A DNA stretch of 64,000 nt from Balneolaceae bacterium (GTDB lineage Bacteria; Bacteroidota; Rhodothermia; Balneolales; Balneolaceae): assembly GCA_020832285.1 (NCBI GenBank), contig JAFIFB010000089.1, positions 1 through 64,000 of the forward strand, given 5' to 3'. Positions within the stretch are counted from its first letter, which is position 1, and every line of letters begins with the position of its first letter. This document shows positions 33,033 to 38,891 of this stretch, in pieces. A model generated the notes under the pieces. It ran no database searches, was not told where the DNA came from, and was given only the letters and a program-made list of their open reading frames with translations. A program made the position numbers and the translations under genes.

Positions 33033-34112
33033 TCAGTGTCGGATACTTAGGATATCTGCCAGTACTCCGGCAGCAGTAACCTCTTTACCGGCACCAGGCC
33101 CCTGGATTACCAGCGGCTGATCGAAGTATCGACGGCTTTTTATTCGAATGAGATTGTTAGTTCCGTTCAGCTGGCCGATGGCGGATGATGTTGGAACCGA
33201 CTCGATTCCAACTTTAATTTTACCGTTTTTAAGACTTCCGGTATATCGGAGCGTTTCGCCTTTTTCTGCAGCCTTTGCACGTTTCTTTTCCCAGATTTCA
33301 TCGTATTGGTTCAACTCTTCCAGGAAAGTTGCGGAATCCACATCTTTAAGTTGTTCCGGGATCAGCGATTCAACATCAAGTTCATCACGTTCGATTTTCA
33401 AACCGCAAATGCGTGCAAGAATCAGGAATTTTCGGGCTACATCTTCTCCGGATAGATCGTCTCTGGGATCGGGTTCGGCGTAACCAAGCCTTCGCGCTTT
33501 AATGACCGATTTACTGAAACTATTGCCTTTGTCAAGTTCAGAGAAAAGGTAGGTCATGGTCCCGGAAACCACACCACTCAACTCCAGGATTTCATCCCCT
33601 GTAAATTGCAGGTTTTTGATAGCATAGATGATCGGGAGGCCGGCGCCCACATTGGTTTCGTAAAGAAATTCCACGCCATTTTTTCCAGCTGTATAGTGCA
33701 GCGTATTGAAATCTTCCTGGCTTTGGGTATTGGCCAGTTTACTCGGGGTAACTACATGAATTTTATTTTCAAGCAGTTGAGGGTAGAGCCGGGCAACGTC
33801 GGCATCGCCGGTGGCATCTATAAAAACTACTGATCGCTCAGGATAGGAGGCGAGTTTATCGATGATAGCCTCCCAGTTCTTATTGGGGCCGCGAAGTAAG
33901 TCATTCAGGGAATATTCACTCTGGCTGCGATCGTACCACAGTACGTGCCGGGCATTGCATACGCCAAGAACACGCAGTGATTTACCTGATCCGTTCCGTG
34001 TTACCTGTTTCAGTAATGTGCTGCCCACAGCACCAACTCCTGCTATAAATAATTTCTTCACTTTTGGGGCCTGCTCTGTTTCTGGCTGTTTTATGGCTTT
34101 TAATTGTGTCAT
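33033..34112 (-). CDS. hom: homoserine dehydrogenase (ThrA/MetL-type catalytic domain)
   Basis: Reduces aspartate semialdehyde to homoserine, the precursor used by MetX. 359 residues: NAD(P) site LFIAGVGAVGSTLLKQV (about 20-36), the conserved catalytic region TNVGAGLPIIYAI, SGVVSGTMTYLFS, and GYAEPDPRDDLSGEDVARK. This matches the dehydrogenase half of bifunctional aspartokinase/homoserine dehydrogenases rather than the ACT-tailed Hom type; no kinase half is fused. It overlaps the end of metX by 4 nt and is the last gene of the SAM-controlled operon. Confidence 0.95.
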   Translation of the reverse strand: MTQLKAIKQPETEQAPKVKKLFIAGVGAVGSTLLKQVTRNGSGKSLRVLGVCNARHVLWYDRSQSEYSLNDLLRGPNKNWEAIIDKLASYPERSVVFIDATGDADVARLYPQLLENKIHVVTPSKLANTQSQEDFNTLHYTAGKNGVEFLYETNVGAGLPIIYAIKNLQFTGDEILELSGVVSGTMTYLFSELDKGNSFSKSVIKARRLGYAEPDPRDDLSGEDVARKFLILARICGLKIERDELDVESLIPEQLKDVDSATFLEELNQYDEIWEKKRAKAAEKGETLRYTGSLKNGKIKVGIESVPTSSAIGQLNGTNNLIRIKSRRYFDQPLVIQGPGAGKEVTAAGVLADILSIRH

Positions 34113-35161
34113 GTTAATGTATAGCTGTGTTGTTTTTCAGTAAATGTCTGGATAATCTTTGTCAATTGCTCAAACTCTATGAGGAATGCGTCGTGGCCGT
34201 AAGGAGACTGTACTTCGCTGTACTCACCGTTAGAAAGTAGTTTGGCAAGCTCCTTTTGTTCGTAAACCGGATAAAGGTGGTCGGAATCTACCCCAATCAC
34301 ATTAACGGGAATCTTTACTTGCTTCAGAACTTCTTCAAAAGTTCCCCTTTCACGTGATACATCATGCGTATCCATCGCTTCGGTTAAAAGTATGTAGGAA
34401 TGGGCATCAAAACGTTCGGCAAGTTTTTTTCCTTGATAGTTCAGGTACGATTCTACCTGAAAAAGATCTTTTTTATTTTCCTGTTCATTTCTGCCGAACC
34501 TGGATTCATAATTTTTTGGAGTTCTATATGTGATCATGGCCATCATCCGTGCAGCGGCAAGTCCGCCATCAGGCCCGTCCTTTCTGTTGTAATTACCACC
34601 ATTCCATTTGGGGTCATTCACAATGGCTGTCCTCTGTGCATGACTAATGCCGATTGCCCAGGCGCTGTGAGCTTTGCCCATTGCCATAAGCACGGCCGAT
34701 TGAATTCGCGGGTCCATGATTGAAAATTCGAGTGCCTGCATGCCGCCAAGAGATCCCCCCAAAACCAGCTCAATCCCCTTGATTCCGAGCCGGTCCAAAA
34801 CCAATTGTTGAAAACGGACCATGTCCCTCACGGTAAGAGAAGGAAAATCATTTAGATAGGGTTTTTCGGTTTCGGGATTTACAGACCAGGGGCCCACCGA
34901 TCCGTACGGACTGCCCGGTACGTTGATACAGATGATAAAGTTTTTTTCGGGATCGCAAACATTCCCCTTACCAAAAATTCCGGGAAACCACTCATCAGCG
35001 GCGGCGTGGCCCGTAAGTGCATGGCAAATCAGAATTACATTATTCTTCTCCTTGTTCAGCTTTCCCCAGGTTTTGTAAGCTGCTTCAGGACGTTTGAAAA
35101 TAAAACCGGATTCGGTTATAAATGGATCGTCTAATGTAACTTTTGTAATTCCTTCGTTCAT
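34109..35161 (-). CDS. metX: homoserine O-acetyltransferase MetX
   Basis: Acetylates homoserine for direct sulfhydrylation. 350 residues, alpha/beta-hydrolase fold with nucleophile motif LGGSLGGMQALEF (Ser in G-x-S-x-G-G), the oxyanion region ICHALTGHAAADEW, Asp in GVDSDHLYP and His in YGHDAFLIE. Both metX and metY, the pair for the acetylhomoserine route, are in this operon. The end overlaps hom by 4 nt. Confidence 0.97.
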   Translation of the reverse strand: MNEGITKVTLDDPFITESGFIFKRPEAAYKTWGKLNKEKNNVILICHALTGHAAADEWFPGIFGKGNVCDPEKNFIICINVPGSPYGSVGPWSVNPETEKPYLNDFPSLTVRDMVRFQQLVLDRLGIKGIELVLGGSLGGMQALEFSIMDPRIQSAVLMAMGKAHSAWAIGISHAQRTAIVNDPKWNGGNYNRKDGPDGGLAAARMMAMITYRTPKNYESRFGRNEQENKKDLFQVESYLNYQGKKLAERFDAHSYILLTEAMDTHDVSRERGTFEEVLKQVKIPVNVIGVDSDHLYPVYEQKELAKLLSNGEYSEVQSPYGHDAFLIEFEQLTKIIQTFTEKQHSYTLT

Positions 35162-35224: not shown

Positions 35225-35806
35225 TCAGTACGGTGTAAAGTGCACACTGCCATTCAATTCCACCGGATTTTTTATAATATCCAGCACAGGACAGCGGGTT
35301 ACAGATAGTTTTTCAAGCGTTTTGAGCTTTTCGGTGTCGGTTTCATTGGTTTCGATTGTGGTTTTATAAGAAACCGTTTCAAAACCGGCACGAGCATCTG
35401 ACAGGTTGAGAAAACCGTGCAGATTCAAGTCGCCTTCAACTTCTACGTTTACTGATTTCAGATCGATGTCCAGAACGGTAGCATACGCTTTAATAACAAT
35501 TTCCTGGCATGCTGCAAAAGCACCCAGTACATATTCAACCGGGTTGGGACCTTTATCAGTTCCGCCCAGTTCTGCCGGTTCATCAGAAACGAATTCAAAA
35601 TTCCGGATGTTTACATCGGTCAAAAAACCGTTTTCGAGTTTTGATTTGGCCCGGAATGTGGCGTCTGCCTGTTTCGGATCTTTTTGGATATTTGAAATCA
35701 GATTTAGAATAGCTTCTTTAAGCTGTTCATCATTTGTGGAAATAAGGGTTTCTGCTGTACTCATAACTTTGTATTTTACGCTTTCGTGAGATGTATGATG
35801 GGCCAT
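35225..35806 (-). CDS. OsmC-family protein
   Basis: 193 residues; a start at the internal Met near 35764 (MSTAETLIST) may be the true one, since the first 14 residues look non-conserved. OsmC/Ohr fold features: GPNPVEYVLGAFAACQEIVIKAYA with the first Cys and SVTRCPVLDIIKNP with the second, the pair that reduces peroxides in OsmC/Ohr. Placement inside a methionine operon suggests a role in sulfur or thiol redox, but many OsmC-like proteins have no known substrate. Confidence 0.9.
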   Translation of the reverse strand: MAHHTSHESVKYKVMSTAETLISTNDEQLKEAILNLISNIQKDPKQADATFRAKSKLENGFLTDVNIRNFEFVSDEPAELGGTDKGPNPVEYVLGAFAACQEIVIKAYATVLDIDLKSVNVEVEGDLNLHGFLNLSDARAGFETVSYKTTIETNETDTEKLKTLEKLSVTRCPVLDIIKNPVELNGSVHFTPY

Positions 35807-35873: not shown

Positions 35874-36326
35874 TTAGCTGCAATGCAGCGATACATGTTT
35901 GATATCGGGGTTTGCCGAACCTGCATAGTTGGTTTGCAGGCGTTTTGTTAGCCTCACCGTATCTTTCGCCAGATTCTCAAGCCGCCTGTAAGCAAGAGTC
36001 TCAACCACTTTTCCTTTCAGAGAATCATTGGGACTCAAATCAAATAGGTTTTTGAATGCACCAGAAAAAGTACCTCTGTTGATCGGCGAGTCTGCAAACA
36101 GTGCATTGAATTCTTTGATTTTGTTGATTATCCGGAGCGTATCCCCGATATAAAAATCGGGGCTCCGTCCATCATAAAAAACAAAATCATACTCAGAAAT
36201 CGGAACGATTTCGATTTCTATCTCTTCGTATTGCTCTTTGGTAAAATCAAGAGTTTTCTGTTTAGCAATCTCCTTTTTAGAGAGTTTGCTAAAACTGCCT
36301 GAAATTCCTGCAATTTGTATACTCAT
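35874..36326 (-). CDS. NADPH-dependent FMN reductase-like flavoprotein
   Basis: 150 residues, shorter than typical (about 175-190). Flavodoxin-like features: FMN phosphate loop GISGSFSKLSK at the N-terminus and ADSPINRGTFSGAFKNLFDL, the SsuE/MsuE-type ring-binding segment (usual form TPxYxGxxSGxxKNxxD). It may supply reduced flavin to a two-component sulfur-assimilating monooxygenase encoded elsewhere, or reduce a thiol substrate. It lies between metY (16 bp) and the OsmC-like gene in the SAM-controlled operon. Confidence 0.82.
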   Translation of the reverse strand: MSIQIAGISGSFSKLSKKEIAKQKTLDFTKEQYEEIEIEIVPISEYDFVFYDGRSPDFYIGDTLRIINKIKEFNALFADSPINRGTFSGAFKNLFDLSPNDSLKGKVVETLAYRRLENLAKDTVRLTKRLQTNYAGSANPDIKHVSLHCS

Positions 36327-36341
36327 GCCGACTCATTATTT

Positions 36342-37685
<1,344 letters not shown>

Positions 37686-38177
37686 TTAATTGATGGTTAA
37701 ATTGCAAGTTTTTTGAAAAATTTCAGGCTCTTCCGGTGGATTTTTTGAATCACGGATCAAAAACTGGTGGTCAACTTTTATGCAACGGTTCTGAATCATG
37801 AAAATCCCGGCTTGTTTTGCTCTTTCTGATTGCTGGGGATGAGTACCAGTTCCAAGCTGTAACCATATCGCCTTCGGATTTATTTCCAGGGCCTGATCCA
37901 CTACCAGGTGTACATAATCCGGCTTAATAAAGACATCCACGGCATCCACTTTTTCAGGGATAGAAACAAGGTCGGGATAAGCTTTTTGCCCCAGTATTTC
38001 ATCTGCTTCCGGATTTACGGGTATGATATTGTAACCTGCATTTTGCAAATACCTGCCCACGTAGTGGCTGTCTTTATGTTTGTTCCGGGAAATTCCCACG
38101 ATTGCAATGGTTTTTATTTCTTTCAGTAAGTTTTCAATGTGGTCTGTCTCCTGAGACAATTCGAGAGTCGACCTCAT
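37686..38177 (-). CDS. CoA-binding domain protein (YccU-like)
   Basis: A small Rossmann protein, about 163 residues from the ATG at 38177 (a TTG 36 nt upstream is also in frame). Motifs: IKTIAIVGISRNKHKDSHYVGRYL (nucleotide loop; shown in part), YNIIPVNPEADEILG, IDVVDVF-type strand (VDAVDVFIKP) and IWLQLGTGTHPQ with MIQNRCIKVDH near the end. The family binds CoA or a nucleotide, but its cellular role is unknown. It is the first gene behind the SAM-I riboswitch, 82 bp after the second terminator, so it belongs to the methionine regulon. Confidence 0.88.
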   Translation of the reverse strand: MRSTLELSQETDHIENLLKEIKTIAIVGISRNKHKDSHYVGRYLQNAGYNIIPVNPEADEILGQKAYPDLVSIPEKVDAVDVFIKPDYVHLVVDQALEINPKAIWLQLGTGTHPQQSERAKQAGIFMIQNRCIKVDHQFLIRDSKNPPEEPEIFQKTCNLTIN

Positions 38178-38259
38178 TTTATTATCGTACCATGTATTAA
38201 AAGTTGTTCGCAATAGCTCAATAATTTAATTCTGAGTTTCACTAAAGTTTTTGTGAAAC

Positions 38260-38310
38260 AAAAAAAGCCTCTTCCAAAAATCCCGTGGGAAAGATTTTCA
38301 GAAGAGGCTC
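38260..38310 (-). terminator. expression-platform terminator of the SAM-I riboswitch
   Basis: On the minus strand AGCCTCTTC pairs with GAAGAGGCT, followed by seven T. The long inner loop contains a second AATCTTTCCCACGGGATTT stem. Located 25 nt after the aptamer, as expected for SAM-dependent termination. Confidence 0.92.
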
Positions 38311-38334
38311 TGTTTTAAGAACATTGCCTGTCCA

Positions 38335-38468
38335 TCTCATCTTTCCCGATCCCGCAAATTTAAAATTGCCGGGATGGGCAGGATTTAGCACCTGACAACC
38401 CGGCATTTCTGACGGATCCGGTTGCTAAGGTTTCTCAGGGCCTGTCCCTCCACCTTTCTGGATAAGAG
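38335..38468 (-). promoter_or_regulatory. SAM-I (S-box) riboswitch
   Basis: Reading the minus strand, all conserved SAM-I blocks are present in order: CTCTTATCCAGA with GGTGGAGGGAC, GGCCC followed by GAAACCTTAGCAACC, AGGTGCTAAATCCTGCC, and GGAAAGATGAGAT, whose last bases pair with the first to close P1. The variable P4/P3 arms are intact. SAM binding should favour the terminator at 38260-38310 and shut off the metY-metX-hom operon. It is the second regulatory stage after the leader-peptide attenuator at 38505-38640. Confidence 0.97.
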
Positions 38469-38504
38469 TTCATTTTTTTAAAGAACAAAAACCGAAAAGC
38501 CGGA

Positions 38505-38539
38505 TAACAAAAAAGCCCTGCTGGAGACCAGAGGGCTTT
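38505..38539 (-). terminator. leader-peptide attenuator terminator
   Basis: On the minus strand AAAGCCCT-CTGG pairs with CCAG-C-AGGGCTTT (one bulged base), ending in TTTTTTG. It lies 36 nt after the stop codon of the Cys/Met-rich leader peptide and about 40 nt before the SAM-I aptamer. Its 5' arm CCCTCTG (minus strand, 38529-38535) can instead pair with CGGAGGG (38566-38572) just after that stop codon. Confidence 0.85.
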
Positions 38540-38574
38540 GTAAAAATTCCTTGAAAATTAGTACACCCTCCGCA

Positions 38575-38640
38575 TCATGCGCTGCAACGCATACACATCA
38601 TACAGAGACAACAAGAAATATTTTTATCTGAACTTTTCAT
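38575..38640 (-). CDS. Cys/Met-rich leader peptide (21 aa)
   Basis: A 21-codon ORF from ATG (38638-38640) to TGA (38575-38577). Residues 10-19 read CCLCMMCMRC: the peptide has five Cys and, after the start, three Met. The first nine residues are unremarkable (MKSSDKNIS). It sits alone in a leader, is followed by an intrinsic terminator and then a SAM-I riboswitch, and precedes methionine biosynthesis genes. Codon content matched to the pathway product and precursor is the hallmark of attenuation leaders. No strong Shine-Dalgarno is visible, which is normal in this group. Alternatively it could be a metal-binding microprotein, but position and terminator favour attenuation. Confidence 0.75.
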   Translation of the reverse strand: MKSSDKNISCCLCMMCMRCSA

Positions 38641-38891
38641 AGAAGTAATGATAACACTCTTTATAGGAACCATGCAAGCATTTTTTAAAAAATAATGAAA
38701 CCGCTATTTCAGATTAAGAAGTTTAAAATAATCAGTAAGGTAAACGCAATTTTCTTTAAATTCAAAAATAACAACACTAAAAGTCAGATAGAGTATTTGA
38801 GAATCGGGATGATTCTGTTTCAGATTATTCTGAATTCATTTAATATTTTAATCAATCTATCAGATAGAATTTAATGGAATAGCGGAGAACC
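38641..38891. other. AT-rich divergent promoter region
   Basis: About 250 bp between the leader peptide (minus) and the sugar dehydrogenase gene (plus). Presumably holds both promoters. A TATAAA sequence read on the minus strand lies about 20 nt before the leader ATG; no confident -35 was assigned. Confidence 0.4.

Follow-up and report, generated by a model that had tools for sequence, protein, structure and literature searches.

We describe a regulatory leader in which an attenuator of the trp/his type, very likely reading the charging of both tRNA-Cys and tRNA-Met, is followed in series by a SAM-I terminator riboswitch and then by a methionine operon; the function is inferred and has not been measured. 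The comparisons below show that the elements are conserved, that the codons of the leader peptide are under selection, that a pair of RNA arms is mutually exclusive and covaries, and that two terminators are present. The locus lies in the window, by which we mean the whole 64,000-nt stretch of Balneolaceae DNA that was analysed. On its minus strand, a promoter-like pair is followed by a leader ORF, terminator 1, a boxA-like element, the SAM-I aptamer, terminator 2, and the operon.

Anatomy of the locus

All features described here are on the minus strand. The leader ORF (38575..38640) has 21 codons and would encode MKSSDKNISCCLCMMCMRCSA before its stop codon; the preliminary description had noted a 21-codon ORF with CCLCMMCMRC at residues 10-19, and its coordinates and sequences were right. 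A promoter-like pair, TTGCAT (38672..38677) and TATCATTA (38646..38653), spans 38646-38677 and ends 5 nt before the leader ATG. Such a pair is assigned to the -33/-7 promoter type of Bacteroidota. In most of the 74 related loci with a leader, TTGC sits at about -37..-33 from the leader ATG, and the -7-like element, whose role is an inference without TSS data, shows positional conservation at -13/-12/-8. The motif ends about 5 nt from the leader AUG in most clades, with genus g3 differing. Given this spacing, the leader ORF is likely to be nearly leaderless in most clades, although this is inferred from sequence and no TSS data are available.

Past the ORF lies the terminator 1 hairpin, the putative attenuator (AAAGCCCUCUGGUCUCCAGCAGGGCUUU, 38512..38539), with its U tract at 38504..38511. 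The 5' arm of this hairpin contains strand 3 (GCCCUCUG, 38529..38536), which pairs with strand 2, the antiterminator arm (CGGAGGGU, 38565..38572). In the MFE structure, the Cys/Met codons also pair with the stop-codon region and the antiterminator arm in a protector (1:2) hairpin (38567..38608). The preliminary description had proposed a 12-bp terminator stem with a T tract, which held (11-12 bp with one bulge, -16.2 kcal/mol), and a CGGAGGG:CCCTCTG pairing with one G-U, which held as well, CGGAGGG occupying 38572..38566 and beginning 2 nt past the stop codon. A boxA-like element (GTTCTTTAAA, 38477..38486) lies between the attenuator and the SAM-I (S-box) aptamer (38334..38468). The aptamer matches RF00162 at 71.4 bits (E 1e-14) against a gathering score of 44.4, which satisfies membership of the family, with SAM binding inferred; it is the sole SAM-I detected in the window's genome. 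Terminator 2, the predicted expression platform, follows at 38265..38310 (-26.1 kcal/mol), so that the claimed order of terminator 1, SAM-I, and a second terminator also held.

The first operon gene (37686..38177) encodes a CoA_binding_2 protein (PF13380, E 9.8e-37) from an ATG at 38177, or possibly from a TTG at 38213 that would make it longer. It is followed by a Cys_Met_Meta_PP gene of the O-acetylhomoserine sulfhydrylase family (36342..37670; PF01053, E 1.8e-137), which we take to be metY from its family and context. Next come genes for an FMN_red family protein (35874..36326; PF03358), an OsmC-like protein (35225..35806; PF02566), and an acetyltransferase of alpha/beta hydrolase fold (34109..35161; PF00561), the last of which we take to be metX from sequence and context, and then hom, encoding homoserine dehydrogenase (33033..34112; PF00742/PF03447). 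The earlier claim that metY, metX, and hom follow the switch needs one correction, as metY is the second gene. The closest named relatives of the window's metY are from Balneolaceae, Rhodohalobacter among them.

The leader peptide is conserved

An RF00162 search of 92 genomes of the family returned 104 loci, which we typed by their downstream gene as metY-type (82) or metH-type (22; metH was recognized from its N-terminal sequence). Counting as a leader any ORF, no more than 300 nt upstream of the aptamer, in which a 10-codon stretch holds 5 or more Cys/Met, we found one in 74/82 metY-type loci. The same criterion was met by 8/1640 dinucleotide shuffles (0.5%) and by 0/82 antisense strands; the ORF is real, far beyond chance. 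No Cys/Met leader was present in the 22 metH-type SAM-I loci of the family, nor in 42 loci from other orders of the class, although metY there has SAM-I. The eight metY-type exceptions comprise six loci of genus g19 plus those of genomes G061 and G037. Among 18 loci from the four other families of the order (f2-f5), 10 met the strict criterion, and most of the remainder carry a smaller Cys/Met cluster recognizable by eye. Leader, terminator, and SAM-I also occur together in further families of the order. With 10/18 strict matches in f2-f5 and 0/42 outside the order, the stack is likely to be a feature of the order Balneolales.

Amino acid composition and codon substitution both single out the Cys and Met codons. 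Cys makes up 18.8% and internal Met 14.1% of residues in the 74 leaders, every one of which has at least two Cys and at least one internal Met (median, 3). We compared observed with expected synonymous changes among single-nucleotide codon differences within genera. In genus 1, synonymous changes at Cys/Met codons numbered 196 against 77 expected, compared with 203 against 207 at other codons; the corresponding counts were 83 against 25 and 100 against 79 in genus 3, and 32 against 16 and 45 against 67 in a third within-genus comparison. The excess at Cys/Met codons is thus 2-3 times expectation, while elsewhere the counts stay near it, with the caveat that they are pairwise and hence not independent. 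This is the contrast that attenuators predict, and it probably reflects retention of Cys and Met identity in an otherwise free peptide. The attenuator therefore meets one requirement for membership of its class, a short ORF with clustered codons for pathway amino acids, in 74/82 loci, though translation itself has not been observed.

The preliminary description had staked its proposal on conservation of the ORF and its Cys/Met codons in relatives. That check was run and passed: the leader is kept across the family and is recognizable in most of the 18 loci of the other four families, and its Cys/Met codons are the constrained part. The stack also exposes an annotation gap. The leader peptides had no meaningful match in Pfam or NCBIfam, and a relaxed-threshold Rfam search of the attenuator brought no known leader family past its gathering score, the weak matches (Trp_leader, PyrR, mir-722) being far below threshold.

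Terminator and antiterminator arms change together

Terminator 1 was called with a folding-based scan, since a gapless-stem scan overlooked bulged stems. A U-tract terminator lies between leader and aptamer in 74/74 leader loci. The duplex of strands 2 and 3 is likewise present in 74/74, with the arm at offsets of -14 to +12 nt relative to where the stop codon ends, and its pairing is significant by shuffling (p<0.05) in 63/74. In all loci, strand 2 is thus placed where a terminating ribosome would cover it, as the attenuator class requires.

The identity of the arms differs by clade. In and near the window's genus, the arm and terminator sequences are CAGAGGG:CCCUCUG and CGGAGGG:CCCUCCG. In genus g3, CCGAAGG or CCGGAGG pairs with CCUUCGG and lies inside the last codons (...QPKD/QPED), whereas the genus g4 arm, AAGGGCU, overlaps the UAA stop and pairs with AGCCCUU; in genus g7, the arm ACCGGGGGAU pairs with the terminator side GUCCCUCGGU. 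Among 66 distinct combinations, 31 have C:G at position 5 of the 5' arm, 24 have U:A, and 9 have U:G; at position 6, U:A occurs 22 times and C:G 19 times. Arms paired with their own terminators reach a paired fraction of 0.92, against 0.87 when swapped between loci, and 0/1000 swaps reach 0.92. A cruder swap test separated own from swapped arms only modestly (18.8 versus 15.7), because GGG/CCC is common to the arms, and the position-wise table is the more informative. It does count against the pairing that part of it is this generic GGG/CCC, swapped arms still being 87% paired. The antiterminator arm nonetheless changes together with the terminator, clade by clade. The protector hairpin has 12 consensus pairs in the window's genus, 4 of them with compensatory double changes.

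We also modelled the folding of each leader. When strand 2 was left free and strand 4 had yet to be transcribed, the antiterminator formed in 74/74 loci (median, -15.3 kcal/mol), and with a ribosome at the stop codon, terminator 1 formed in 74/74. Without a ribosome, the MFE structures were mixed, with the 2:3 pairing in 41/74 and the 1:2 protector in 33/74, and basal behaviour is therefore not predictable. The proposal of an antiterminator, made in the preliminary description, thus held at the sequence level, the arm being conserved and covarying with the terminator. An intrinsic terminator with a mutually exclusive antiterminator, another requirement for membership among attenuators, is present in 74/74 loci with covarying arms.

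A variant arrangement occurs at four loci of family f2 (L193, L206, L219, L226), where the leader is present without a U-tract terminator before the aptamer. The leader ends ~22 nt from the aptamer in these loci, and the ORF lies inside an imperfect hairpin that is very long.

The SAM-I riboswitch and its two contexts

Downstream of the aptamer, 81/82 metY-type loci have a terminator. None of the 22 metH-type loci has one, and their start codon mostly lies within ~50 nt after the aptamer. With no terminator and a nearby start codon, the metH SAM-I is likely to be a translational switch, as inferred from sequence alone. The metH-type loci (e.g. L002, L004, L118) carry, by eye, a promoter-like TATATT/TATCTTTG just upstream of the aptamer.

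We considered whether the window's locus was one of the known T box/SAM-I tandems. In the window, SAM was the only Rfam family to exceed its gathering score, and a relaxed-threshold search of 38250-38760 turned up no T box. As far as that search reaches, no T box RNA lies beside SAM-I, and the locus does not fit this class.

A boxA-like element between the two terminators

Across the order, 96/100 metY-type loci carry the motif GTTCTTT, which precedes the aptamer by 10-54 nt (median 19). Within the family, it is found within 60 nt of the aptamer in 79/82 metY-type loci, where shuffles lead one to expect 2.65; further upstream it appears in only 2/82 metY-type loci, and it is absent from all 22 metH-type loci. 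A 16S search of the window's own genome gave no match, and rRNA boxA sequences were therefore taken from relatives. There, GTTCTTT is present in the rRNA leaders of 7/8 operon copies examined and in most 16S-23S spacers, examples of the boxA-like sites being GTTCTTTGAGAATA, GTTCTTTATAATATT, GTTCTTTGAAGGTA, and GTTCTTTGACATATT. By sequence, the element matches the boxA-like site of rRNA operons; NusB/S10 binding and any effect on termination are inferred. We judged a second promoter, or pairing with the aptamer, to be less likely identities for GTTCTTT than boxA.

Genus g19, which has small genomes, has lost the leader and attenuator (L145, L154, L156, L158, L164, L184), and most of these loci retain the boxA-like element and SAM-I. 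The element is also found in 5/42 loci of other orders. From these two distributions, boxA is not strictly tied to the attenuator.

The simplest guess, and no more than a possibility, is that boxA shields a long untranslated leader from Rho. A bolder reading, which we lean slightly against, is a three-part gate made of an attenuator on a nearly leaderless ORF, an rRNA-type boxA loading NusB/S10, and a SAM-I terminator, in which NusB/S10 on RNA polymerase would protect the untranslated stretch from Rho or early termination. If the bolder reading is true, boxA would have a functional role in an operon under riboswitch control, and free S10/NusB or Rho activity would be a third input. Short of that, the data strongly hint that this riboswitch leader incorporates a boxA site.

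A model for two-input control

We propose that transcription starts almost at the leader AUG. When Cys and Met are plentiful, the ribosome would reach the stop codon and cover strand 2 (CGGAGGG), whereupon terminator 1 (strands 3:4) would form and the transcript would end. A ribosome stalled at the Cys/Met cluster would leave strand 2 free to pair with strand 3 (CCCUCUG) before strand 4 is made, giving an extended hairpin of about -15 kcal/mol. RNA polymerase that passes terminator 1 would then transcribe the boxA-like element, the SAM-I aptamer, and terminator 2, which would stop it if SAM is bound; low SAM would permit entry into the metY-metX-hom operon. The predicted gate is (Cys/Met-tRNA shortage) AND NOT (SAM). 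Because polymerase must clear both terminators to reach metY, expression should require that Cys/Met codons be decoded slowly and also that SAM be low.

That the ribosome stalls, that transcripts terminate, that the aptamer binds SAM, and that the modules act in series in vivo are all likely on this anatomy, from which they are inferred without expression, ribosome-profiling, or binding data. The two-input gate put forward in the preliminary description, combining Cys/Met-tRNA charging with SAM, is supported to the same extent; it too is inferred, and its response to Cys, Met, or SAM limitation is untested. Severe Met shortage would also impair fMet initiation on the leader and so, in a trp-type design, favour termination, and the Met input may therefore work only over a moderate range. 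The model would constitute a natural two-input gate, reading sulfur amino acid use in translation (through tRNA charging) together with the methyl-donor pool (through SAM), and the more than 70 natural variants of its Cys+Met double-codon attenuator allow codons, arms, and switch to be compared.

Alternative explanations

The most serious rival, which we consider unlikely, is that the leader senses Cys-tRNA charging alone and that its internal Met codons serve the protector hairpin through AUG/UGU repeats. In its favour, the 1:2 hairpin of genus 1 takes its 5' arm from the Cys-Met-Met-Cys codons, some leaders have just one internal Met, a severe lack of Met would also block initiation on the leader, and leaders with Cys runs alone are known in Actinobacteria (PMC1262725). 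However, all 74 leaders hold at least one internal Met even in clades with different hairpins, Met-dominated leaders exist elsewhere in Bacteroidota (L285, L286), and at one Melioribacteraceae locus (L077) metY is preceded by the Met-only leader MKRIDINIAHIMMINMMMLFSLRTKGE, which has a terminator of its own and an arm to match. It is less likely still that the nascent Cys/Met-rich peptide responds to thiol stress, or to a metal (Cu, Zn, Cd), in place of tRNA charging. Cys and Met are metal ligands, and the operon includes OsmC and FMN_red family proteins, but the position and spacing of Cys and Met vary by clade and the other residues are unconserved, which fits codon counting and not a ligand site. 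Moreover, the core downstream genes are for Met synthesis, and a similar leader precedes metY without SAM-I in other Bacteroidota.

Also improbable, in our view, is an arrangement in which the modules are not in series and the SAM-I transcript has a promoter of its own, downstream of terminator 1 and ahead of the aptamer, so that the attenuator controls only part of expression. GTTCTTT, just upstream of the aptamer, is highly conserved, and metH-type loci carry a promoter-like site at that position (by eye). Yet in metY-type loci no TAnnTTTG-like -7 box was seen at promoter spacing beside GTTCTTT, the motif recurs unchanged at the boxA-like sites of rRNA operons in relatives, both in leaders and in spacers, and a good promoter-like pair sits just before the leader. 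Finally, short ORFs are common, and the leader might be a chance ORF or part of an RNA-only feature with incidental coding capacity. This is all but excluded by its presence in 74/82 loci against 0.5% of shuffles, by a synonymous excess confined to Cys/Met codons, and by the failure to find the leader in metH-type and other-order SAM-I loci.

Relation to known systems

The nearest precedent is the T-box(Met)/SAM-I tandem, whose logic of Met-tRNA charging plus SAM is known (PMC9481103). As here, a Met-tRNA sensor and SAM-I precede homocysteine/Met genes, with predicted 'A AND NOT B' behaviour, but in the tandems uncharged tRNA is sensed by binding to a T box RNA, whereas the Balneolales sensor would be a translated leader peptide that reads Cys too. 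The tandems number 2 and 7 examples, while the Balneolales stack is conserved through an order, and the words 'peptide' and 'uORF' are absent from the text of the tandem paper. The preliminary description did not recall this combination having been described, and in the literature we searched, which left out most subscription papers, we likewise found no account of a leader-peptide attenuator joined to SAM-I or of Met/Cys leaders in Bacteroidetes; such absence is not proof. As the Met-tRNA and SAM logic is already known from the T box tandems, what is new is its leader-peptide implementation, the Cys+Met readout, and the order-wide conservation.

Attenuators of the trp/his/thr type share with the Balneolales leader their regulatory codons, their antiterminator and terminator arms, a protector arm that only some of the Balneolales leaders form in the MFE structure, and an antiterminator arm under the stop-codon ribosome; here, however, two kinds of regulatory codon (Cys, Met) serve a Met operon, and a second, independent ligand-controlled terminator follows. 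The actinobacterial leaders, too, are short ORFs with runs of Cys codons that precede sulfur genes, no conserved terminator hairpins having been found for them in mycobacteria (PMC1262725), whereas those of Balneolales have an intrinsic terminator, Met codons, and then SAM-I. Mycobacterial polycysteine ORFs are reported to be leaderless (Canestrari et al. 2020, as cited in PMC13236596), and the Balneolales leader is probably nearly so, in the absence of TSS data. The element uORFC-8-2, before cysS in Rhodobacterales (PMC8632094), similarly combines a Cys-codon leader, an intrinsic terminator, and presumed attenuation, but it precedes another gene, has two tandem Cys codons, and lacks a riboswitch. 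In the Salmonella mgtA leader (PMC6386406), a leader peptide (Pro-rich mgtL) and a ligand-responsive RNA act on one operon, but the ligand is Mg2+ and termination is Rho-dependent and does not use two separate intrinsic terminators. Leader-peptide attenuation of amino acid operons is also mentioned in a flavobacterial study whose main text gives no details (PMC9723704). The stack thus likely differs from known systems in its combination of modules, the Cys+Met double code, and the boxA insertion, with both modules passing the membership tests that could be run.

Cys/Met leaders elsewhere in Bacteroidota

We inspected a small sample of 40 metY upstream regions from other Bacteroidota, recognizing SAM-I by its core pattern only. 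The SAM-I core motif was present in 21/40, among which a single Cys/Met-rich ORF was found, without a terminator before its aptamer. The 19 regions without SAM-I included 10 with a Cys/Met leader, several with its own terminator. SAM-I and the Cys/Met leader are therefore likely to be alternatives before metY elsewhere in the phylum and stacked in Balneolales, subject to the small sample.

Three further observations concern metY itself. Cyanobacterial metY genes from Dolichospermum/Anabaena (L070, L071, L073-L075) are 72-73% identical to Balneolaceae metY and have no SAM-I core motif upstream; horizontal transfer is possible. The Met-only leader upstream of metY in Melioribacteraceae (L077) has an antiterminator-like arm and no SAM-I. 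At another metY locus without SAM-I (L284; genome G249, family f26), two Cys/Met leader ORFs lie in tandem, each with a terminator.
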